This document shows positions 36,085-46,690 of a DNA stretch of 64,000 nucleotides, piece after piece; within the stretch, counting starts at the first letter, position 1, and each line of letters begins with the position of its first letter. Under the pieces are notes generated by a model. The model was not told the origin of the DNA and ran no database searches. It worked only from the letters and a program-made list of their open reading frames with translations. Source of the stretch: Halosimplex salinum (lineage in GTDB: Archaea; Halobacteriota; Halobacteria; Halobacteriales; Haloarculaceae); the NCBI RefSeq assembly GCF_003730195.1, contig NZ_QWGG01000002.1:496001-560000 (forward strand). Direction: 5' to 3'. Position numbers and translations under genes: made by a program.

Positions 36085-36975
36085 CTATTCCTGCTCGGCC
36101 AGCCACGCCATGAGCCCTTTCTGGGCGTGCAGGCGGTTCTCCGCCTGGTCCCAGACGATGGCGTTGTCGCTCTCCAGCACCGCGTCGGTGACCTCCTCGC
36201 CGCGGTGGGCGGGGAGACAGTGCATCAGCGCGCGGTCGCCGAGCAACTCCTCGGTGATCTGGAACCCCTCGAAGTCGGCGAGCTTCTGCTCGCGCTCGTC
36301 CTCCTGGCCCATGCTGACCCACACGTCCGTGTACACCACGTCGGCGTCCGCGACGGCCGCTTCGGGATCGGTCGTCACCGCGGGCGCCGTTCCCAGCGTC
36401 TCCGCGCGGTCCAGCACGCCCTCGTCCACCTCGTAGCCCTCGGGCGTGGCGACGCTCAGATCGAGCCCGCACATCGCGGCGCCGAGGACGAACGACTGAC
36501 AGACGTTGTTGCCGTCGCCGACCCACGCGACCGTCGGGTCCTCGAAGCGTTCGCGGATGGTCAACAGGTCGGCGAGGGTCTGGCAGGGGTGGGCGTCGTC
36601 GGTCAGCGCGTTGATCACCGGCACCTCCGCGTACTCGCCGAGTTCCACCACGTCCTCGTGGTCGAACACGCGAGCCATCACGAAGTCGACGTAGCGACCG
36701 AGCGCCCGCGCGATGTCTTTCACCGGCTCGCGGCCGTGCAGGCCGATGTCGTCGGGGCCGAGGAACACCGCGTGCCCGCCCAGCTGTGTCATGCCGGTCT
36801 CGAAGGAGACTCGCGTCCGTGTCGACGGCTTCTCGAAGATCATCCCGAGGGTCTGACCGTCCAGCAGGTCGGTCGACCCGTGCTCGCGGTAGTCGGCCTT
36901 GATCGCCGCCGCGCGGTCGAGGACGGCCGTCAGTTCGTCGGTCGTGAGGTCGTCGACGTCGAGGAAGTTCGTCAT
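36085..36975 (-). CDS. argF: ornithine carbamoyltransferase
   Basis: A 296-residue transcarbamylase with the carbamoyl-phosphate motif STRTR (51-55), HPCQ (129-132), SMGQE and HCLPAHRG near the C-terminus. It converts ornithine and carbamoyl phosphate to citrulline. It is the last gene of argW-X-C-B-D-E-F; its ATG is six bases from the argE stop. Downstream it has its own hairpin and T5, and a second copy of its 3' end. Confidence 0.95.
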   Translation of the reverse strand: MTNFLDVDDLTTDELTAVLDRAAAIKADYREHGSTDLLDGQTLGMIFEKPSTRTRVSFETGMTQLGGHAVFLGPDDIGLHGREPVKDIARALGRYVDFVMARVFDHEDVVELGEYAEVPVINALTDDAHPCQTLADLLTIRERFEDPTVAWVGDGNNVCQSFVLGAAMCGLDLSVATPEGYEVDEGVLDRAETLGTAPAVTTDPEAAVADADVVYTDVWVSMGQEDEREQKLADFEGFQITEELLGDRALMHCLPAHRGEEVTDAVLESDNAIVWDQAENRLHAQKGLMAWLAEQE

Positions 36976-36981
36976 GAGTTG

Positions 36982-38106
36982 CTAATCGAGCAGTTGGTCG
37001 GTCGCGGCTTCCAGCGCGGCCACGGCGCGGTCGTACTCCGCCAGCGAGACGTGCTCGTCCGGCGCGTGGTCCAGGTCCGAGTCGCCGGGCCCGTAGGTCA
37101 CCATCGGACAGTCCCACTCCTGTGCGTATATGTTCATATCACTCGTCCCGGTCTTCCGCAGGAGTCGCGGGTCGCCGCCCGTCTGCCGGACCGCGGCGCG
37201 GAACGCCCGCGCGACCGCCGTCCGCGGGTTCTGCATCACCGGCTCGACCGCGTCGTGCCAGTGAACCGTCCCGTTCGTCAGGTGGCCGTCCGCCAGTTCA
37301 CGGACTTCTTCGGTCGTGTACTCCGGCGGGACGCGCAACTGCACGTCCACCGTCGCCTCGACGGAGAGCCCGTCGTCGCTGGCGCCGCCCTCGAAGCTGA
37401 TCGGCTTGCACGTCACCCGCTCGAAGACGGGCACCCACTCGTCGTGGGCGAACTCGTCCTCGACGCGGGACCACCAGTCGATGGCGTCCTGGATGGCGTT
37501 GTTCTCCGGCCGCGAGGAGTGGCCCGACTCGGAGGTCGCGACGTACGTCCCCGCGAGCAGGCCGCGATACCCCAGCGTGATGCCGTCCCAGCCCGAGGGC
37601 TCGCCGTTCACGACGGCCCCCGGGACCTCGTCGCGGTTTTCGACGAGGTAGCGGGCACCACGCGAGTCGACCTCCTCGCCGACGACGCCGACGAAGGAGA
37701 CGCCCGTCCGCACGGCCGCGACGGCCATCGAACACAGCGGCCCCTTCGCGTCGACGCTCCCGCGTCCCCACAGCTGCTCCTCACCGTCCTCGCTGTCGGC
37801 GGTTTCACCGCCTCCGAACCGTGCCTCCTCCGGAGGCACGCGCTCCACTCGCACCGGGATGTCTCCGGGGACGGTGTCGATGTGCGAGGTCAACAGCACG
37901 CTGTCGTCGGCCGGCGCGCGGACGTTCCCGACCTCGTCGATCCACACCTCGCGGTCGTGGGCCTCGAAGAACTCCACGAGGACCTGCGCGGCCTCCGCTT
38001 CCTCGCCGGTCACCGACGGCGTGTCGACCACCTCGATCAGGAGGTCGCGCGCCGCCTCGTCGGGGCCGATGTCCGCTCCGGCGTTCTCGCCCGCGCTCTC
38101 ACTCAT
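36982..38106 (-). CDS. argE: [LysW]-ornithine/lysine hydrolase (M20 family)
   Basis: A 374-residue zinc peptidase of the ArgE/LysK type: first metal motif LLTSHIDTVPGD, catalytic Glu in VGVVGEEVDSRG, and dimerisation domain with ASDDGLSVEATVDVQLRVPP. In this operon it should release ornithine (and perhaps lysine) from the C-terminal Glu of the carrier protein LysW. The ATG at 38106 lies within the 3' end of argD (8-base overlap); a GTG one codon earlier is less likely. Confidence 0.88.
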   Translation of the reverse strand: MSESAGENAGADIGPDEAARDLLIEVVDTPSVTGEEAEAAQVLVEFFEAHDREVWIDEVGNVRAPADDSVLLTSHIDTVPGDIPVRVERVPPEEARFGGGETADSEDGEEQLWGRGSVDAKGPLCSMAVAAVRTGVSFVGVVGEEVDSRGARYLVENRDEVPGAVVNGEPSGWDGITLGYRGLLAGTYVATSESGHSSRPENNAIQDAIDWWSRVEDEFAHDEWVPVFERVTCKPISFEGGASDDGLSVEATVDVQLRVPPEYTTEEVRELADGHLTNGTVHWHDAVEPVMQNPRTAVARAFRAAVRQTGGDPRLLRKTGTSDMNIYAQEWDCPMVTYGPGDSDLDHAPDEHVSLAEYDRAVAALEAATDQLLD

Positions 38107-39232
38107 CACCGACGACCTCCGCCATGGCGTCGACGACCTGGTCGACCTCGTCCTCGGTGACCGTCAGCGGCGGCAGGAACCGGACGACCGTCCGTCCGGC
38201 CGGCAGCGCCAGGATGCCGTGGTTCATCGCCAGCTGCTTCAGCGCGCGGTTCGCGCCGCGTCCGACCTCGACGCCGACCATCAGGCCCTCGCCGCGCACG
38301 TCGCGCACCTCGTCGCCGATCTCCGCTTCGAGGCGCTCCTGCATGTACGCGCCCACGTCGCTGGCGTGGGTCGGGACGTCCTCGTCGACGATGGTCGAGA
38401 CGGTCGCGCCGGCGGCCGCCGAGATGACGGGGCCGCCCGAGAACGTCGAGGCGTGCGAGCCGTAGTCCTCGGCGATCCAGTCGCGACACAGCGTCGCGCC
38501 GACCGGGAACCCGTTGCCCAGTCCCTTCGCCGCGGTGAGGATGTCGGGCGTGACGCCCGACTGCTCGGCGGCCCACAGCGTCCCCGTCCGACCCATCCCC
38601 GTCTGCACCTCGTCGAAGATGAGCGCCGCGCCCGACTCTTCGGTCTCCTCGCGGGCGCGCTGGAGGAACTCGGCGGAGGCGGGGTTGATGCCGCCCTCGC
38701 CCTGGACGGGTTCGACGATGACAGCCGCGGTCTCGTCGTCGACGGCGTCGGCGAGTTCGTCGCCGTCGTCGTAGGGGACGAACTCCACGTCGCCCATCAG
38801 CGGCTCGTAGGGCTTCTTGTACTTGCTCTTCCAGGTGGTCGCGAGCGACCCCATCGTCCGGCCGTGGAACCCCTGCATCGTCGCGACGATCTTCGAGTTC
38901 CCGGTGGCCGAGCGGGCGAACTTCAGCGCCGCCTCGTTGGCCTCCGTGCCGGAGTTACAGAGCCACGTCTTGTCGATGGGATCGGGCGCGGTGTCGGCCA
39001 GCAACTCGTACAGCGCCGTCCGCGCCGCGTTGGGGTAGGAGGCCTGCACGTAGGTCAGTTTCTCGAACTGCTCGGTCACGGCGTCGTGGACCGCCTCGTG
39101 CCCGTGCCCCAGCGGGACGCAGGCGTACGAGGCGCCGAAGTCGAGGTAAGCTGTGCCGTCGTCGTCGTAGAGGGTCGCACCGTCGCCCTCCTCGATCTGG
39201 ATGGGTTTCTCCGAAAAGACGAATCCGCTCAT
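38099..39232 (-). CDS. argD: [LysW]-aminoadipate/glutamate semialdehyde aminotransferase
   Basis: A 377-residue class III aminotransferase. Visible are YLDFGASYACVPLGHGHEAV, the NSGTEANEAALKFAR phosphate-binding segment, GFHGRTMGSL, FDEVQTGMGRTG and the PLP lysine in LTAAKGLGNGFP. It transfers an amino group to the semialdehyde held on LysW. Its ATG overlaps the argB stop by four bases. Confidence 0.92.
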   Translation of the reverse strand: MSGFVFSEKPIQIEEGDGATLYDDDGTAYLDFGASYACVPLGHGHEAVHDAVTEQFEKLTYVQASYPNAARTALYELLADTAPDPIDKTWLCNSGTEANEAALKFARSATGNSKIVATMQGFHGRTMGSLATTWKSKYKKPYEPLMGDVEFVPYDDGDELADAVDDETAAVIVEPVQGEGGINPASAEFLQRAREETEESGAALIFDEVQTGMGRTGTLWAAEQSGVTPDILTAAKGLGNGFPVGATLCRDWIAEDYGSHASTFSGGPVISAAAGATVSTIVDEDVPTHASDVGAYMQERLEAEIGDEVRDVRGEGLMVGVEVGRGANRALKQLAMNHGILALPAGRTVVRFLPPLTVTEDEVDQVVDAMAEVVGDE

Positions 39233-40083
39233 TGTGTCTCCTCCGTCTCCGCAGTATCTGAAAGTGCCGACGCGTGGACGTGCGTGCCGCCGCCGGACAG
39301 GGCCGACAGGATCGGCTCCTCGGCGTTCGCGTCCGCGACGATGACCTCCGCCGCACCGCCGTCGAGGGACTCCTCGATGGCCATCACCTTCCGCTCCATG
39401 AACCCCTCGGCGGCGTCCTCGAGGGCCGCCCACTCGTCGGGCGTCTCGACGGACTCGATGAGCGTTGACGGATCGTCGGGATCCGCGTAGATGCCCTCCA
39501 CGTCCGTCAGCAGGACGAGCGTCGCCTCCAGCGCGCCCGCGATGTGGGCCGCCGAGCGATCGGCGTCGGTGTTGACGGGGATAACGTCTTCCTCGTCCTT
39601 GCCGGCCATCGGCGGCGACGCGACTGGCGTGTAGCCGTCGTCGAAGAGCGTCTCCAGCAGGTCCGCGTTGACCCGCTTGATCGTCCCCGAGTGGTCGCCG
39701 CGCTTGATCTTGCGCTTGCCGTCCTCCACGACGCGCACCGCGGACTTCCGCGGGCCGTAGAGGAGCCTGCCGTCCACGCCGTTCAATCCGACGGCGTCGA
39801 CGCCCTGGCTCTGGAGGCCCGCGACGAGCTGTGTGTTGAGGTGGCCGAACACCATCTCGAACACCTCCATCGTGTCCTCGTCGGTAAAGCGGCCGACGAC
39901 GCCCGACGGGGTCTCGACGTACTCGGGTTCGATACCGAGCCGTTCGAGCGTCTCGTCGACGGCGGTCGAGCCGCCGTGGACGACCGCGACGCTCTCTCCG
40001 TCTTCACGTAACGATGCAACGTCCGCCAGTGCGCCCGCGGGGTCGACCGCGCGAGCGCCGCCGATCTTGACGACTGTAGTCAC
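39229..40083 (-). CDS. argB: [LysW]-aminoadipate/glutamate kinase
   Basis: A 284-residue amino-acid kinase with VVKIGGARA, VVHGGSTAVDETLERLG and the C-terminal VTDVEGIY-like LLTDVEGIYADPDD. It phosphorylates the side-chain carboxylate of Glu attached to LysW. The start is GTG at 40083, the only start codon that keeps the conserved TTVVKIGG opening. It is 14 bases from the argC stop and overlaps argD. Confidence 0.92.
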   Translation of the reverse strand: MTTVVKIGGARAVDPAGALADVASLREDGESVAVVHGGSTAVDETLERLGIEPEYVETPSGVVGRFTDEDTMEVFEMVFGHLNTQLVAGLQSQGVDAVGLNGVDGRLLYGPRKSAVRVVEDGKRKIKRGDHSGTIKRVNADLLETLFDDGYTPVASPPMAGKDEEDVIPVNTDADRSAAHIAGALEATLVLLTDVEGIYADPDDPSTLIESVETPDEWAALEDAAEGFMERKVMAIEESLDGGAAEVIVADANAEEPILSALSGGGTHVHASALSDTAETEETQ

Positions 40084-40097
40084 GAAAAATCACCTGC

Positions 40098-41135
40098 TCA
40101 GGGGGCGCCGACCGGGTGGAGGCCCCCGAACTCCAGTCCCGCCGTCTCCTCGAGACCCAGCGCGACGTTGGCGGCGTGGACCGCCTGCCCCGCCGAGCCC
40201 TTCATCATGTTGTCGATCGCCGAGAAGACGACGAGGCGCCTGTTTCCGGGGTCGAGCTCGAACCCGACCTCCGCACGATTCGTCCCCGCGACCGCCTTCG
40301 GCTCGGGGTAGCGATACACGCCACCGCCGCCCGCGACGAGTTCGACGAACGGCTCGTCCTCGTACTCGCCGCGATACGCCCCCCAGAGGTCGCCCTTCGA
40401 GACGGGCTCGCCCGGGAAGACGTGACAGGTCGCGCTCGCACCGCGGATCATGTCCACCGCGTGGACGGTAAAGGACACGTCGAGTCCGAGGAACTGCTCG
40501 ATCTCGGCCTCGTGACGGTGGCCCGTCGGCGCGTACGGGCGAACGACGCCCGAGCGCTCGGGGTGCGAGGACGCTTCCCCGCCCCCCGCACCGCCTTCCG
40601 AGGAGCCGACCTTCACGTCGACGACGACCTGCTCGTCGCCGGTGAGGATCCCGTCCTCGACCAGCGGTTTGAGCCCGAGGATCGTCGCGGTCGCGTTACA
40701 GCCGCCGGAGGCGATCAGATCCGCGCCCGGCAGTTCGTCGCGCGTCACTTCGGGGAGCGCGTAGACGGACTCCTCCAGCAGCTCGGGGCGCGTGTGCCCG
40801 TCGTACCACTCGTCGTACTGCGCTTCCGTGTCGAGACGGAAGTCCGCCGAGAGGTCGACGACCGTGTCGGCGGCGTCCTGGAACGCGTCGATCTGCTCCA
40901 TCGAGACGCCGTGAGGCGTCGCCGCGAACAGCACGTCCACGCTCTCTAGCTCCTCGGGCGAGGAGAAACGCAGGTCCAGGTCGCGGAGGTTCGGGTGCGC
41001 GTGGCCCACCGTCTTGTTCTCCTTCGACCGGCTCGTCGCCTGGGCGAGTTCGAACTCCGGGTGGCCCGCCAGCAGGCGGAGGAGCTCGCCACCGGTGAAG
41101 CCCGATCCACCGACGACCGATGCAGTGTAGCTCAT
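40098..41135 (-). CDS. argC: [LysW]-glutamyl/aminoadipyl phosphate reductase
   Basis: A 345-residue ArgC/LysY reductase: N-terminal Rossmann VVGGSGFTGGELLRLLAGHPE, the catalytic Cys in ASGGCNATATI, and the substrate segment SSEGGAGGGEASSHPERSGVVRPYAPTGHRHEAE. It reduces the acyl phosphate to the semialdehyde with NADPH. It lies 10 bases after argX and 14 before argB. Confidence 0.94.
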   Translation of the reverse strand: MSYTASVVGGSGFTGGELLRLLAGHPEFELAQATSRSKENKTVGHAHPNLRDLDLRFSSPEELESVDVLFAATPHGVSMEQIDAFQDAADTVVDLSADFRLDTEAQYDEWYDGHTRPELLEESVYALPEVTRDELPGADLIASGGCNATATILGLKPLVEDGILTGDEQVVVDVKVGSSEGGAGGGEASSHPERSGVVRPYAPTGHRHEAEIEQFLGLDVSFTVHAVDMIRGASATCHVFPGEPVSKGDLWGAYRGEYEDEPFVELVAGGGGVYRYPEPKAVAGTNRAEVGFELDPGNRRLVVFSAIDNMMKGSAGQAVHAANVALGLEETAGLEFGGLHPVGAP

Positions 41136-41145
41136 ACGTTCGTCC

Positions 41146-42051
41146 TCATGTGGTTGCCTCTGCCGTCTCCGTGTCCGCCGCCCCCGCGACGCTCTCCAGC
41201 CAGTCGACGACCCGCGCGGGCACGTCGACGTCGGTGACCTCGTTGAGCGCCTTGAACTCGACGGTGTGGTTGACCTCGTGGACGGTGTACCCCGAGGGGT
41301 TCCCGTCGTCGTCCACGCCGGTCTCCATCAGGTCGATCCCGAGGAGGCCGCCGCCGACCGCGTCGCTGGCCTTCCGCACGAGTTCTTCCATCTCCGGCGT
41401 GATCTCGATCTCCGCCGTCTCGGCACCCTTGGCGGCGTTGGTCAGCCAGTGGTCCGACGAGCGGACCATGCCGGCGACCGGCTCGCCGTCGACGGCCACG
41501 ATACGGATGTCGCGACCCGGCTTGTCGACGAACTCCTGGATGTAGAACACCTTGTGCTCGTAGTGCCCGAGCGTCTCCTTGTGTTCGAGGATCGCTTCGG
41601 CCGCCGAACGGGAGTCGATCTTCGCCATCAGGCGCCCCCACGAGCCGACGACCGGCTTGAGGACGCACGGATAGCCGAAGTCCTCGATGCTCTCGAGGGC
41701 CGCGTCTTTCGTGAACGCCACGTCGGTCGTCGGCGTCGGCACACCCGCCTGCTCCAGCGCGATGCTGTTTTTCACCTTGTTCGCACAGACCTCCGCCGTC
41801 GCGGCCGCGTTGACGACCGGGATGTCGTAGGCCTCGGCGAACTGGGTGGCGTACAGCGAGCGGCTCGTGGCGAGACAGCGGTCCACGAGCACGTCGACGT
41901 CCTGCATGTCCTCGGGCGGGTCGGAGAGCCCGAAGCGCTGCTTGCGGACGTCGACCTTCACGACCTCGTGGTCGCGCTCACGCAACTCGTTGAGCAGGAG
42001 CTTCTCGTCCCGACGGATCCGGGAGTAGAGGATGCCGACGTTCACTCTCAC
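41146..42051 (-). CDS. argX: glutamate-LysW ligase ArgX (RimK/ATP-grasp family)
   Basis: A 301-residue ATP-grasp ligase: VGILYSRIRRDEKLLLNEL at the N-terminus, VLKPVVGSWGRLMAKI, FYIQEFVDKPGRDIRIVAVDGEPV and the Mg site IDLMETG...VHEVNHTVEFK. It joins the amino group of glutamate to the C-terminal Glu of LysW, starting arginine synthesis. GTG at 42051 overlaps the argW stop by four bases; GTG at 42045 is a second possibility. Confidence 0.92.
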   Translation of the reverse strand: MRVNVGILYSRIRRDEKLLLNELRERDHEVVKVDVRKQRFGLSDPPEDMQDVDVLVDRCLATSRSLYATQFAEAYDIPVVNAAATAEVCANKVKNSIALEQAGVPTPTTDVAFTKDAALESIEDFGYPCVLKPVVGSWGRLMAKIDSRSAAEAILEHKETLGHYEHKVFYIQEFVDKPGRDIRIVAVDGEPVAGMVRSSDHWLTNAAKGAETAEIEITPEMEELVRKASDAVGGGLLGIDLMETGVDDDGNPSGYTVHEVNHTVEFKALNEVTDVDVPARVVDWLESVAGAADTETAEATT

Positions 42052-42212
42052 TCACCCCAGTCCTCTTCGAGCTCCGGTGCCGTCTCGAGGACTGGAGGTT
42101 CGGTGTCGACGACTTCGAGCTCCGCACCGCAGGTGCCACAGTCGACGATCTCTCCTATCTCGATGCCGTCGTGCAGAGATACCTCCGCTCCGCACTCGAC
42201 GCATTCTGCCAT
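42048..42212 (-). CDS. argW: amino-group carrier protein LysW/ArgW
   Basis: A 54-residue zinc-ribbon protein: CVEC...CGTC cysteine pairs (zinc) and the diagnostic C-terminus EEDWGE, whose last Glu carries the growing arginine (and possibly lysine) intermediates by its gamma-carboxyl. It replaces N-acetylation. First gene of the seven-gene arg operon; ATG at 42212 lies about 29 bases after a TATA box, so the mRNA is probably leaderless. Confidence 0.96.
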   Translation of the reverse strand: MAECVECGAEVSLHDGIEIGEIVDCGTCGAELEVVDTEPPVLETAPELEEDWGE

Positions 42213-42237
42213 TGTACCAGCTACTCGCAGTGCTATG

Positions 42238-42246
42238 TACTTAAAG
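42238..42246 (-). promoter_or_regulatory. TATA box of the argW-X-C-B-D-E-F operon
   Basis: Minus-strand CTTTAAGTA, centred about 29 bases before the argW ATG. No obvious operator palindrome was seen between it and the start. Confidence 0.6.
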
Positions 42247-42351
42247 CCTTCGAACCTATCAGACAAGAAGGGTTACGCATACGCCACTCTAAGCGCGTTG
42301 CAAGCCGAAATTCGCGGACAGTCCGTTCACTGTATCAAGATTGTGGTAGTT

Positions 42352-42364
42352 CCCCTCGAAGGGG
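42352..42364. terminator. small hairpin downstream of argH
   Basis: Minus-strand CCCCTTCGAGGGG, a four-base GC stem with a TTCGA loop, about 70 bases after the argH stop and upstream of the argW promoter. No T-run follows, so termination function is uncertain. Confidence 0.35.
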
Positions 42365-42428
42365 TCGTGGGAGCGGTTGTGGTCGGTAGTGCGGGTCGCT
42401 GTGAGCGCGCTGCCGGCGCGCGGTCGTC

Positions 42429-43955
42429 TCAGACATACTCTGTCACCTCCGTCTCGAGGTCGTCGAGCGCGCCGGTCACCGCTTCGCGGCGGTCGGCGAC
42501 CGCGGCCTCGCCGGCCGACAGGCGCTCGCGAGCGCCCTCGATCTGGACGGCCACCGCGTCGGGCGCGGGACCGCCGGCCGAGTCGCGCATCGCCACGCTC
42601 TCGACGGGGGACAGCGTCGCCGTCAGCGTCTCCCTGTCGACGTACGCCGTCAGCGGCTCGCCCAGAATCTCCTCGGCCGCCGCCTCCAGCGCGTCGATGT
42701 CGGGGGCGTCCTGCCCGGGTTCGAGGTCTTCGGCGACGGTCGCCACGACCTCGTGGGCCGTTCGGAAGGGGACGCCCGCCATCGCCAGCCGGTCGGCGAC
42801 GCCCGTCGCCGTCGAGAACCCGGCCGCCGCTTCGGCGGCCAGCACGTCCTCGTGCCACTCCGCCGTGGTCAGCGCGCCCGTCACCACTTCCAGCGCGGGC
42901 GGCACGGTATCGACCGCGGTCCAGGCCGGCGGCGTCGCCTCCTGCAGGTCGATGTTGTACGACCGGGGCAGCCCCTTCAGCGTCGTCAGTAACCGCTGGA
43001 GCGCGCCCTGTGCCTCGCCTGCGGTCGCGCGGACGATCTCGAGGGTGTCGGGATTTTTCTTCTGGGGCATGATCGACGACGTCGACGCGTAGTCGTCGCT
43101 GATTTCGAGGTAGTCCCGACCGCTGTACACCACGAGGTCCTCGGCCAGCCCCGACAGCGTCGTCGCCAGCGTCGTCAGCGCGCTCGTCGTCTCGACGAGG
43201 AAATCACGGGAGGACGTAGCGTCCATCGAGTTCGCGACCGTCCCGTCGAAGCCCAGCAGGTCGGCGGTGCGCTCGCGGTCCACGTCGAAGGGCGTCCCCG
43301 CGAACGCCGCCGCGCCGAGCGGCGACTGGTTCGTCGTGTCGAACGCCGAGAGCAGGCGCTCCGTGTCGCGGGCCAGCGGCCCCTCGTATGAGAGGATCCA
43401 GTGGGCCACCGTGACCGGCTGGGCGTACTGGAGATGCGTGAACCCGGGCATCACCGTCTCGGTGTGCTCGGCCGCGGCGTCGAGCAACTGCTCGCGCGCG
43501 CCGACCACAGTTTCGAGCGCCTCGAACAGGTCCGCACGCAGGCGATACCGGATGCAGGTCGCCACCTCGTCGTTGCGCGAGCGGGCGGTGTGCATCCGTC
43601 CGCCCTCGGGCCCGACGCGCTGGATCACTGCGGTCTCGATGGCCTCGTGGACGTCCTCGGCGTCGGGCAACTCGCCGTGGCCCGCCGCCTCCACGTCGTC
43701 CAGCGCGGCGAGGATCGAACCGGCGTCCTCGTCGTCGACGATGCCCTGTTCGGCGAGCATCACGACGTGAGCGCGGTCGACCTGCAGGTCGGCCGCGAAG
43801 ATGCGTTCGTCCGCCGCGAGCGAGGACATGAACCCGCGCGCCGGCCCGCCGGAGAAGCGGTCCCGGCGGATCGCGGTGCCGGCGCTGGCGGCGTCGCCGC
43901 TGTCAGCGTCACCGGTCGTATCGCCCGCGTCGGGAGTGTCCTCGCCGTTCGTCAT
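42429..43955 (-). CDS. argH: argininosuccinate lyase
   Basis: A 508-residue member of the fumarase/aspartase superfamily. Signature SSIMPQKKNPDTLE (catalytic loop) is present, with HTARSRNDEV and GFTHLQYAQPVT, typical of ArgH. It splits argininosuccinate into arginine and fumarate. One base separates its ATG from the argG stop, so argG-argH are co-transcribed. The first 25 residues are an acidic haloarchaeal extension. Confidence 0.95.
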   Translation of the reverse strand: MTNGEDTPDAGDTTGDADSGDAASAGTAIRRDRFSGGPARGFMSSLAADERIFAADLQVDRAHVVMLAEQGIVDDEDAGSILAALDDVEAAGHGELPDAEDVHEAIETAVIQRVGPEGGRMHTARSRNDEVATCIRYRLRADLFEALETVVGAREQLLDAAAEHTETVMPGFTHLQYAQPVTVAHWILSYEGPLARDTERLLSAFDTTNQSPLGAAAFAGTPFDVDRERTADLLGFDGTVANSMDATSSRDFLVETTSALTTLATTLSGLAEDLVVYSGRDYLEISDDYASTSSIMPQKKNPDTLEIVRATAGEAQGALQRLLTTLKGLPRSYNIDLQEATPPAWTAVDTVPPALEVVTGALTTAEWHEDVLAAEAAAGFSTATGVADRLAMAGVPFRTAHEVVATVAEDLEPGQDAPDIDALEAAAEEILGEPLTAYVDRETLTATLSPVESVAMRDSAGGPAPDAVAVQIEGARERLSAGEAAVADRREAVTGALDDLETEVTEYV

Positions 43956-43956
43956 C

Positions 43957-45213
43957 TTATTCGCTGTCGTCAGTCTGACCGCCGTCCGTGGCGGCCTCGG
44001 CCTGCTTCGCCGCGACGTTCGCCGCGACGCGGTTGGCGAGACGCGACTGGAAGCCGTGGTACTTCGCGACGCCGGTGGCGTCGTCCTGTTCGATGTCGTC
44101 GGTCACCGCTTCTTCGTTGAACGAGGCCGCCGACTCGCTGTAGACCGCGTAGTCGCTGTCGCGGCCGACCGGACGGGCCTGCCCGCCGTCGAGCTTGACC
44201 GTCACGGTCCCGGTGACCTTCGTCTGGGTCTGCTCGATGAAGCTCTCGAGGGCCTTCGTGAGCGGCGCCTCGACGAGCCCCTCGTAGCCCTTCTGGGCCC
44301 AGCGCTGGTCGACCTGCTGTTTGAACGCGCGCTCCTCCTGCGTGAGGACCAGACTCTCCAGGGCCTCGTGGGCGTTCAGCAGCACCGTCGCGGCCGGGTG
44401 CTCGTAGTTCTCGCGCACCTTGAGGCCGAGCATGCGGTCCTCCATGATGTCCGAGCGGCCGACGCCGTGCTTGCCGGCCGTCTCGTTGAGCTGTTCGATG
44501 AGTTCGACGGCGTCGATCGCCTCGCCGTCGAGGGCGACCGGGACGCCCTGCTCGAAGGTGAGTTCGAGCGTCTCCGTCTCTGCACTGCCCGGTGCGGTCG
44601 TCCAGTCGTAGATCTCCTCGCCGGGGACGTACGACGGGTCCTCCAGTTCGGAGCCCTCGACGGAGCGGCTCCAGAGGTTCGTGTCGATGCTCCAGCGGCC
44701 GCCGTCGCCGCCCTCGACGGGCAGGCCCTTCTCGGCGGCGTACTCGTTCTCCCACTCGCGGGTGAGGCCGAGTTCGCGAATCGGCGCGAGCACGTCCAGG
44801 TCGGAGGCGCGCCAGACCGCTTCGAAGCGGAGCTGGTCGTTGCCCTTCCCCGTACAGCCGTGGGCGAGGGCGCTACAGCCCTGTTCCTCGGCGACTTCGA
44901 GGATGGCGTTGGCGATGACCGGGCGCGCGAGCGCGGTGCCCAGCGGGTAGCCCTGGTAGGTGCCGTTGGCCTTGACGGACTGCATGCAGAGGTCGGCGAA
45001 CTCCGCTTTCGCGTCGACGACGAAGTGCTCGAGGCCGAGTTCCTCGGCGGTCTCCTCGGCTTCGTCGAACTCCTTGGCGGGCTGGCCGACGTCGACGGTG
45101 ACGCCGATGACGTCGTCGTAGCCGTACTCTTCCTTGATGAGCGGGACGCAGACTGTCGTGTCGAGCCCGCCGGAGAAGGCGAGCGCGACCGTGCCGGATG
45201 GGTCGGATGTCAT
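43957..45213 (-). CDS. argG: argininosuccinate synthase
   Basis: A 418-residue PP-loop ligase with the ATP motif ALAFSGGLDTTV near the N-terminus, GCTGKGNDQLRFE and SIDTNLWSRSVEG. It joins citrulline and aspartate using ATP. The ATG at 45213 is chosen because it starts the conserved region; the in-frame extension to 45414 is low-complexity. The nearest good TATA box lies about 270 bases upstream, before a separate small ORF, so the gene probably has a long transcribed leader. Confidence 0.95.
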   Translation of the reverse strand: MTSDPSGTVALAFSGGLDTTVCVPLIKEEYGYDDVIGVTVDVGQPAKEFDEAEETAEELGLEHFVVDAKAEFADLCMQSVKANGTYQGYPLGTALARPVIANAILEVAEEQGCSALAHGCTGKGNDQLRFEAVWRASDLDVLAPIRELGLTREWENEYAAEKGLPVEGGDGGRWSIDTNLWSRSVEGSELEDPSYVPGEEIYDWTTAPGSAETETLELTFEQGVPVALDGEAIDAVELIEQLNETAGKHGVGRSDIMEDRMLGLKVRENYEHPAATVLLNAHEALESLVLTQEERAFKQQVDQRWAQKGYEGLVEAPLTKALESFIEQTQTKVTGTVTVKLDGGQARPVGRDSDYAVYSESAASFNEEAVTDDIEQDDATGVAKYHGFQSRLANRVAANVAAKQAEAATDGGQTDDSE

Positions 45214-45308
45214 GTGTTGTGTGGTAGCTGTCGGGTGAAGTGTCCGCCCGGAACCCGACGGTGGCGGCGATTGGAAACGAGACGTGGCGACGATGGGAGA
45301 GGTAGTTT

Positions 45309-45324
45309 CGGGCCTAACGGCCCG
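45309..45324. promoter_or_regulatory. hairpin over the stop codon of the putative argG leader ORF
   Basis: Perfect inverted repeat cgggcc-taac-ggcccg. Its loop holds the TAG stop of the arginine-rich leader ORF. In the mRNA sense it would form where a ribosome stalled near the arginine run would sit, as in attenuators. No T-run follows directly. Confidence 0.4.
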
Positions 45325-45454
45325 GCCGTCGTCGCCGCGGTCGTCGAGTCTCGACGCGGCTTGCCGCCGCGGACGCGACTCGACGCGTGAAAAGTCGGTC
45401 GGCGGACCCGCCACTCGACGCGGCCTGCGTGCCGGGAGCGCGGGTCGTAGCCAT
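45314..45454 (-). CDS. putative arginine-rich leader peptide upstream of argG
   Basis: A 46-residue ORF not in frame with argG: it opens MATTRAPGTQ and ends RVETRRPRRRRPGR. Twelve of 46 residues are Arg, including two Arg pairs and a run of four, concentrated toward the end. Its ATG at 45454 lies about 32 bases after a TATA box (45481-45490), the spacing of a leaderless start, and its stop lies in a hairpin. Together this resembles an amino-acid-responsive leader peptide. Against it: GC-rich DNA gives Arg-rich chance ORFs easily. Confidence 0.45.
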   Translation of the reverse strand: MATTRAPGTQAASSGGSADRLFTRRVASAAASRVETRRPRRRRPGR

Positions 45455-45480
45455 GTATCTGCTACTACCGATAGTTCGGT

Positions 45481-45490
45481 ACTAAAACTT
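45481..45490 (-). promoter_or_regulatory. TATA box upstream of the argG leader
   Basis: Minus-strand AAGTTTTAGT. It is the only clear TATA-like element in the 358 bases between argG and the next gene, and implies a transcript that starts near 45459, with about 245 bases before argG. Confidence 0.5.
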
Positions 45491-45571: not shown

Positions 45572-46690
45572 CTACAGACGCTCGACCGGAACGGCAGACC
45601 GGTTCGTCTCCTCGTCGGCGTTCGAACCGCCGGCACCGCCGGCATCGTCGCCCGCGCCGCCGGAACCGCCGTCACTGCCGCCCGAATCGCCGGACCCGGC
45701 CTGTCCGGTTTCGTTACCCTGGCCGGAGTCGCTGGGCGGTCCGGTCTCGTTACTGGGACCTGAATCGGCGGGCGGCCCGGTCTCGTTACTCGGGCTGGTG
45801 TCTACTGGTGGTCCGGTTTCGTTACCCTGGCCGGAGTCGGCGGGCGGCCCGGTCTCGTTTCCCGGATCAGCGCCGGCGGCCTGTCCGGTTTCGTTACGGG
45901 GACCGGTGTCGGCCGGCGGTCCGGTCTCGTTTCCCGGGCCCGCGTCCGTGGCCTGCCCGGTCTTGGTACCCGGGCCGGCGTCGGCGGGCGGACCGCCGTT
46001 GCCCTGTCCGCCGGCGCTGCCGTTACCGGACGCGCCCGGTCCGCCGGTCCGGTTCTGCACGAACGCCGGCGGGCCGGCCTGCTCGGGCGGGCCGCCCATA
46101 CCCTTGCCGGCGTTCTTCCCGGCGATACCCCGCGCGATGGCCGCGACTTCGGGGCCGCTCATCTCGCTGGCCCGCGTCCGGAGCGTCTCGATGGCGCTCA
46201 CGTTCACGCCCTTCGCTTCGAGCGCCGCGGCGGGCAGTTCGCGGGCGACGTACTCGGTCTGGTTGACCTGCCGCTGGAGCGCACGCTGCTCGGCGTGCAC
46301 CTTCGCGAGTCGGGCGCGGTACTGCCCCTCGCTCAGCGTCTCGTTCTCGTGGGCGCGCTCCAGTTCGGCCAGTCGCTCGTCGAGTTCGGTCAGTCGATCC
46401 TCGAGGTCCGTGACCTCGTCGGCGACGACGCCGGCGGCCGACGCGTTCGACCGCGCGGCGGCGACCCGCTGGCCGAACGCCCGCGCCTCCACCTCGCCGG
46501 CGATCTCGGCCTGTTCGACGCCGACGACCCCGGCGAACCGCTCGCCGGGCGCCAGCGACTCGTTCACCGTCTCGTTCGCGGCGGTCTGTTGCGCGCCGGA
46601 CCCGGCGCCCGACAGCGCGGCGACCGGAACCGCGCCGACGGCACCGAGCACGACCAGAAGCGCCACGGCGACGGGTGATACTTCGTCCAT
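45572..46690 (-). CDS. secreted/cell-surface protein with coiled coil and tandem N-glycosylation repeats
   Basis: 372 residues. An N-terminal hydrophobic signal (SPVAVALLVVLGAVGAVPVAAL) is followed by a helical region with a coiled coil (about 90-150: TDLEDRLTELDERLAELERAHENETL), a short globular part, and a C-terminal Gly/Pro-rich tail made of 12-residue units each centred on NETG. The tail ends without an anchor. It resembles haloarchaeal surface proteins of unknown role. A TATA-like TTTATATGGG lies about 27 bases before the ATG. Confidence 0.7.
   Translation of the reverse strand: MDEVSPVAVALLVVLGAVGAVPVAALSGAGSGAQQTAANETVNESLAPGERFAGVVGVEQAEIAGEVEARAFGQRVAAARSNASAAGVVADEVTDLEDRLTELDERLAELERAHENETLSEGQYRARLAKVHAEQRALQRQVNQTEYVARELPAAALEAKGVNVSAIETLRTRASEMSGPEVAAIARGIAGKNAGKGMGGPPEQAGPPAFVQNRTGGPGASGNGSAGGQGNGGPPADAGPGTKTGQATDAGPGNETGPPADTGPRNETGQAAGADPGNETGPPADSGQGNETGPPVDTSPSNETGPPADSGPSNETGPPSDSGQGNETGQAGSGDSGGSDGGSGGAGDDAGGAGGSNADEETNRSAVPVERL
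45692..45979. repeat. eight 36-bp units encoding NETG repeats
   Basis: Residues about 238-333 of the surface protein form eight 12-residue units of the type PGNETGPPADSG. Seven keep the N-x-T sequon; the first has TKT instead. Unit-to-unit DNA similarity is high (for example the recurring cggtctcgtt), so the tract can expand or contract. Confidence 0.85.

Follow-up and report, generated by a model that had tools for sequence, protein, structure and literature searches.

A leader ORF rich in arginine codons upstream of argG in haloarchaea: a probable ribosome-mediated attenuator

The window analyzed here, a stretch of 64,000 nucleotides from the genome of Halosimplex salinum (contig NZ_QWGG01000002.1, positions 496,001 to 560,000), carries an arginine operon headed by argG and preceded by a short leader (Table 1). 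Within the operon, argH and argW are separated by a gap of 160 nt (42267-42428) that could contain a further promoter or a transcript boundary. The gene upstream of the leader (45572-46690) encodes a secreted-looking product with many GNETGPPADSGP-type repeats, rich in Gly, Pro, Asn and Glu.

Table 1. Features of the arginine operon and its leader (positions in the window, listed in the direction of transcription).
Feature	Position	Strand	Remarks
TATA-box-like element aagttttagt	45481..45490	-	about 32 nt 5' of the uORF ATG; predicts a leaderless start
Leader ORF (uORF), 46 codons	45314..45454	-	stop codon TAG at 45316-45314 included
Hairpin H1, first half of the uORF	45405..45446	-	arms GACCCGC (45446-45440) and GCGGGTC (45411-45405)
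Regulatory codon run CGA CGA CCG CGG CGA CGA CGG (RRPRRRR)	45326..45346	-	
Hairpin H2, CGGGCC-GTTA-GGCCCG	45309..45324	-	perfect; uORF stop codon at the loop
Untranslated spacer, H2 to argG start	45214..45308	-	no TATA box and no long T run in Halosimplex
Candidate H-type pseudoknot	45230..45267	-	CCGCC (45267-45263)/GGCGG (45248-45244); GTCGGGT (45259-45253)/ACCCGAC (45236-45230); read by eye
argG, argininosuccinate synthase	43957..45213	-	first structural gene of the operon
argH, argW (lysW), argX, argC, argB, argD, argE, argF	36085..43955	-	remaining arginine operon; NCBIfam matches for all eight

An earlier sequence-only reading of this DNA had described a TATA box spaced for a leaderless ATG at 45454, a 46-codon ORF whose 12 arginines cluster late and whose frame is unlike that of argG, and a stop codon lying within a perfect cgggcc/ggcccg hairpin. 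All of these elements are present in the letters. The first T of TTTTAG is found 32-33 nt upstream of the ATG, and the distance from this ATG to that of argG (45454-45213 = 241) is not a multiple of 3. The product of the uORF is MATTRAPGTQAASSGGSADRLFTRRVASAAASRVETRRPRRRRPGR, with the C-terminal end RRPRRRRPGR. Hairpin H1 pairs codons 2-9 with the stretch that precedes the arginine run, and H2 begins within a few nucleotides of the last arginine codon; of the TAG stop, T and A belong to the H2 loop and G to the 3' arm, as part of its first pair. Between the TATA box and the start site, a palindrome, TACCGATAGTTCGGTA (TACCGA-N4-TCGGTA, 45466-45481), constitutes a unique perfect match in the genome.

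Richness in arginine is by itself weak evidence in GC-rich DNA, as 4 of the 58 ATG-initiated ORFs of 35-60 amino acids in the window reach at least 26% Arg. When only the last nine codons are counted, the uORF ranks first of these 58 ORFs for arginine, and it alone has three or more CGA codons in that stretch. The decisive evidence is the comparison with relatives, for which 52 loci from named genomes and metagenome-assembled genomes and many more from further genomes were used. Start codons were chosen only by their spacing, 27-34 nt after a TATA-like element, so that the frames were not selected by arginine content. Such an ATG exists in 116 of 123 distinct leaders and, in 108 of these 116, it opens an ORF whose final nine codons include three or more arginines. 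The other eight leaders are mostly evident arginine-rich variants such as MTRTRRAGPAAPVRAVRAPRPGL; a few candidate ATGs are probably spurious. The ORFs span 21-51 codons with 23 different length values, all in frame, and the ATG and the arginine run have therefore been kept in frame across many insertions and deletions. ORF, hairpin and promoter are all maintained within the genus Halosimplex.

Leaders of this kind stand before argG in 9 of the 11 families sampled in the order; none was found in the two others (f5 and f11), each represented by one sampled genome. R1, a covariance model of the arginine run and H2, finds a match at E <=0.01 in 106 of the 116 class genomes searched, its strong matches being argG leaders, and a search of 296 genomes from the phylum returned no match outside the order. 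The weak R1 matches away from argG that were inspected looked like chance hits, in sequence devoid of an argG leader. Genomes of the Halorubrum type carry a derived form, ARRRGPSGR, that R1 misses. The sequence-only reading had proposed conservation in relatives as a check; the ORF is found in nearly every relative examined and its arginine enrichment proves stronger than suspected and specific for one codon. Taken as sequence evidence, uORF, frame, Arg/CGA run, stop codon in a covarying hairpin and TATA spacing thus recur ahead of the arginine operon across nearly the whole order.

The codon signal is concentrated at the end of the ORF, where arginine accounts for 478 of 999 codons (48%) in the last nine positions versus 305 of 2506 in the earlier ones. 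CGA represents two thirds of these terminal arginine codons (316/478); among the arginine codons of the relatives' argG genes it amounts to 5 of 580 (0.9%) and in the genes of the window to 4.5%. Proline codons in the same terminal stretch are CCG in 162 cases and CCA in 16, and the A in third place is therefore a property of the arginine codons and not of general composition. The identity of the stop codon varies (TAG 76, TGA 26, TAA 9). In the N-terminal half, 28 single changes are synonymous for 29 expected, showing no selection on amino acids; codons and frame therefore matter, and not a microprotein. The leaderless ORF and its own promoter would also suit an ordinary small-protein gene standing before argG by chance, but this explanation is highly improbable in view of the unselected N-terminal half, of lengths ranging from 21 to 51 codons and of the fact that only arginine codons and frame are kept. 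As read from these alignments, the pattern is typical of a leader ORF: its translation, reading frame and regulatory codons would matter and its peptide would not.

The C-terminal consensus RRxRRPG[RLS] directly at the stop could alternatively belong to a nascent peptide that arrests the ribosome at the stop codon under arginine excess and lowers argG expression. We regard such an arrest as unlikely. The last residues and the position of the stop vary (RRRAGRPE, RRPAL, RRGPSGR), the residues PG follow from the hairpin arm CCGGGC, amino-acid selection is not seen in the N-terminal half, and a peptide sensor would not need a signal specific for CGA. A conserved arrest peptide of the fungal type is accordingly not what these leaders contain. 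The preference for CGA stands out and is only partly explained, since according to the theory of selective charging rarity does not in itself make a codon the most sensitive (PMC1183508).

The hairpins are conserved as RNA structures. The stop codon is enclosed by a perfectly paired stem (>=5 bp) in 84% of leaders versus 4% of shuffled flanks. The arms of H2 covary, with GGGCC/GGCCC in most lineages and GGGGTC/GACCCC in Halobacterium and Halarchaeum, and double-change cells number 18 versus 6.9 after shuffling (0/500). The position of the stop within H2 is retained despite the interchangeable use of TAG, TGA and TAA. For H1, arms of the same species pair at -23.1 kcal/mol versus -18.1 kcal/mol for arms combined across species, a value not reached in any of 2000 permutations. 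Two hairpins and the conserved nucleotides CGACGACCGGGCC..GGCCC could also be expected of a structured RNA or DNA operator, be it a riboswitch, a site for an RNA-binding protein or a repressor palindrome, with the ORF being incidental, and in this genome the palindrome TACCGA-N4-TCGGTA indeed covers the promoter. The palindrome was rejected as an operator: it is perfect only here and in one relative and is not kept within the genus. An incidental ORF is likewise hard to reconcile with a frame kept through 23 lengths, interchangeable stops, an ATG always at leaderless distance and the replacement of arginine by proline turning CGA into CCG and not CCA; moreover, no Rfam 15 model matched up to E = 5. 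An operator of this kind is therefore very unlikely.

These leaders combine a short ORF with cognate regulatory codons, placed before the matching operon, and a conserved RNA hairpin, H2, that a stalled ribosome would be able to alter. The sequence-only reading had suggested a control by arginine through ribosome sensing, an interpretation to which the conserved ORF, the Arg/CGA enrichment and the covarying hairpin holding the stop codon lend support. We favor, with a probability of roughly 0.78, a ribosome-mediated attenuator that senses charged tRNA-Arg, and we infer translation, stalling, sign of control and output step as follows. Transcription would start 0-4 nt before the uORF ATG, allowing a ribosome to initiate at once on the leaderless end, to open H1 and then to reach the CGA run. 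If arginyl-tRNA is in short supply, the ribosome would stall on this run with its footprint covering the 5' arm of H2, a reasoning that rests on general ribosome size, and would stay close behind the RNA polymerase, leaving the arginine operon on. When arginine is ample, the ribosome would reach the stop codon in the H2 loop and depart, and H1 and H2 would refold; the bare downstream RNA would then allow the operon to be turned off, through either factor-dependent (FttA/aCPSF1) termination or a block of argG translation.

The output may thus be transcriptional or translational, and the model is weakest at this step because no U-rich tract is seen in Halosimplex. No intrinsic terminator made of a hairpin and a U-run was found before argG, and leaders of the Haloarculaceae type contain no T-run; U-rich tracts occur only in families f3, f4 and f9 and do not adjoin H2. 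For an alternative pairing of the antiterminator type between the arginine run and downstream RNA, 111 leaders gave a mean z of -0.93, a weak signal for the order as a whole; the pairing is strong only in some lineages, for example Haloarcula. Promoter layouts also differ. A transcription start close to argG would have counted against a leader, as the sequence-only reading had pointed out; proximal TATA boxes are lacking in Halosimplex and its family, none of the 46 Haloarculaceae-type leaders counted having one 26-48 nt upstream of argG. The Haloarculaceae and Halobacteriaceae types (f1, f2, f6, f8) appear to rely on the leader promoter only. Genomes of the Natrialbaceae, Haloferacaceae and f9 types display a second TATA box 26-48 nt before argG (25/26 leaders in f3, 11/13 in f4 and 3/3 in f9) with a U-rich tract ahead of it; family names for f1-f4 were inferred from named relatives. 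As this second promoter adjoins argG, part of argG expression can bypass the leader there. The archaeal factor FttA/aCPSF1 terminates transcription in a Rho-like manner with a preference for U-rich RNA, and its exclusion by the ribosome has been hypothesized (PMC11616081). The U-rich tract located between leader and second promoter in f3, f4 and f9 would suit this factor.

A purely translational control, in which ribosome placement on the uORF would either dictate how the 100-nt spacer folds or supply ribosomes for initiation or reinitiation at argG, leaving transcription unaffected, is possible but rather doubtful. It would fit the Haloarculaceae and Halobacteriaceae, which have neither U-tract terminator nor second promoter, and the distance of about 61-160 nt between uORF and argG. 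The candidate pseudoknot near the argG start points in the same direction for the part of the Haloarculaceae to which it is limited, with changes in two relatives that appear, by eye, to be compensating. On the other hand, spacer structure is not conserved across families, argG possesses no Shine-Dalgarno sequence to be masked and its start lies far from the uORF stop for a classical termination-reinitiation.

An attenuator sensing charged tRNA-Arg would be akin to the ribosome-mediated attenuators of enteric bacteria (trpL, hisL, thrL, leuL, pheM/pheST), which also consist of a short ORF with a run of cognate codons of biased choice and overlapping hairpins directly before the operon. It would differ from them in being archaeal and leaderless without a Shine-Dalgarno sequence, with its stop codon in a hairpin loop. 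In addition, it has neither an adjoining hairpin and U-run terminator nor a clear antiterminator and, in the absence of an intrinsic terminator and a general antiterminator, we make no claim of membership in that family. The fungal arginine attenuator peptide (arg-2/CPA1 uORF) is likewise encoded by a uORF controlling an arginine-synthesis gene, but there a conserved peptide senses arginine at the stop codon, whereas the haloarchaeal leader conserves codons and frame. The speFL/orn leader of Salmonella and E. coli senses ornithine through its nascent peptide and controls polyamine synthesis; it shares with the arginine leader the association of a leader ORF with RNA refolding tied to arginine or ornithine, with unrelated sequence and design. 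The sequence-only reading knew of no archaeal example for argG, and neither Rfam nor the open full-text literature, to which our search was confined, yielded an argG leader or a report of amino-acid attenuation in archaea.

A second leader of comparable layout precedes pheS. In many haloarchaea (24 distinct leaders), a leaderless uORF ends with GFGFFF(A/D).. and a stop codon that is often found in a hairpin, stems of at least 5 bp being present in 42% of cases versus 8% after shuffling. In this genome the leader reads MAPEPTTGRLARRPEAARPGFGFFFDGT and is located at about 607.6 kb, outside the window. Small leaderless uORFs have been reported in the long 5' UTRs of Haloferax volcanii, including one of 26 amino acids before pheS, whose long 5' UTR was mapped experimentally (Babski et al. 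2016, PMC4983044). That study does not list argG, reports only proteins of low isoelectric point and mentions neither cognate codons, nor a hairpin, nor sensing. The 26-amino-acid H. volcanii uORF product matches the GFGFFF peptide of the same length from a relative in isoelectric point, the reported mass being slightly different, and the two are likely identical. The pheS uORF, which finds a parallel in E. coli pheM, is likely, judging from its codons and layout, an independent phenylalanine leader built on the same design as the arginine leader. A scan of relatives for tryptophan leaders before trpE and trpS and for leucine leaders before leuA-like genes found none.

We consider it rather probable that a class of leaderless, ribosome-sensing attenuators peculiar to haloarchaea exists, comprising the arginine leader, the phenylalanine leader and perhaps others, in which codon runs and a stop codon in a hairpin would read tRNA charging, with an output through archaeal factor-dependent termination or translation and no terminator of the bacterial type. 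If true, amino-acid attenuation would here be described for the first time in the domain Archaea, and the phenylalanine leader before pheS suggests that the system is a general one. Ribosome-mediated attenuation is a textbook example of bacterial control; the conservation of such a leader throughout the class, in a codon-specific manner, means that the possible use of attenuation by archaea, which have a eukaryote-like RNA polymerase and no Rho, can be put to a direct test in haloarchaea amenable to genetics. It would also offer access in vivo to the coupling of transcription with translation and to termination by FttA, whose steric exclusion by the ribosome has been proposed (PMC11616081).
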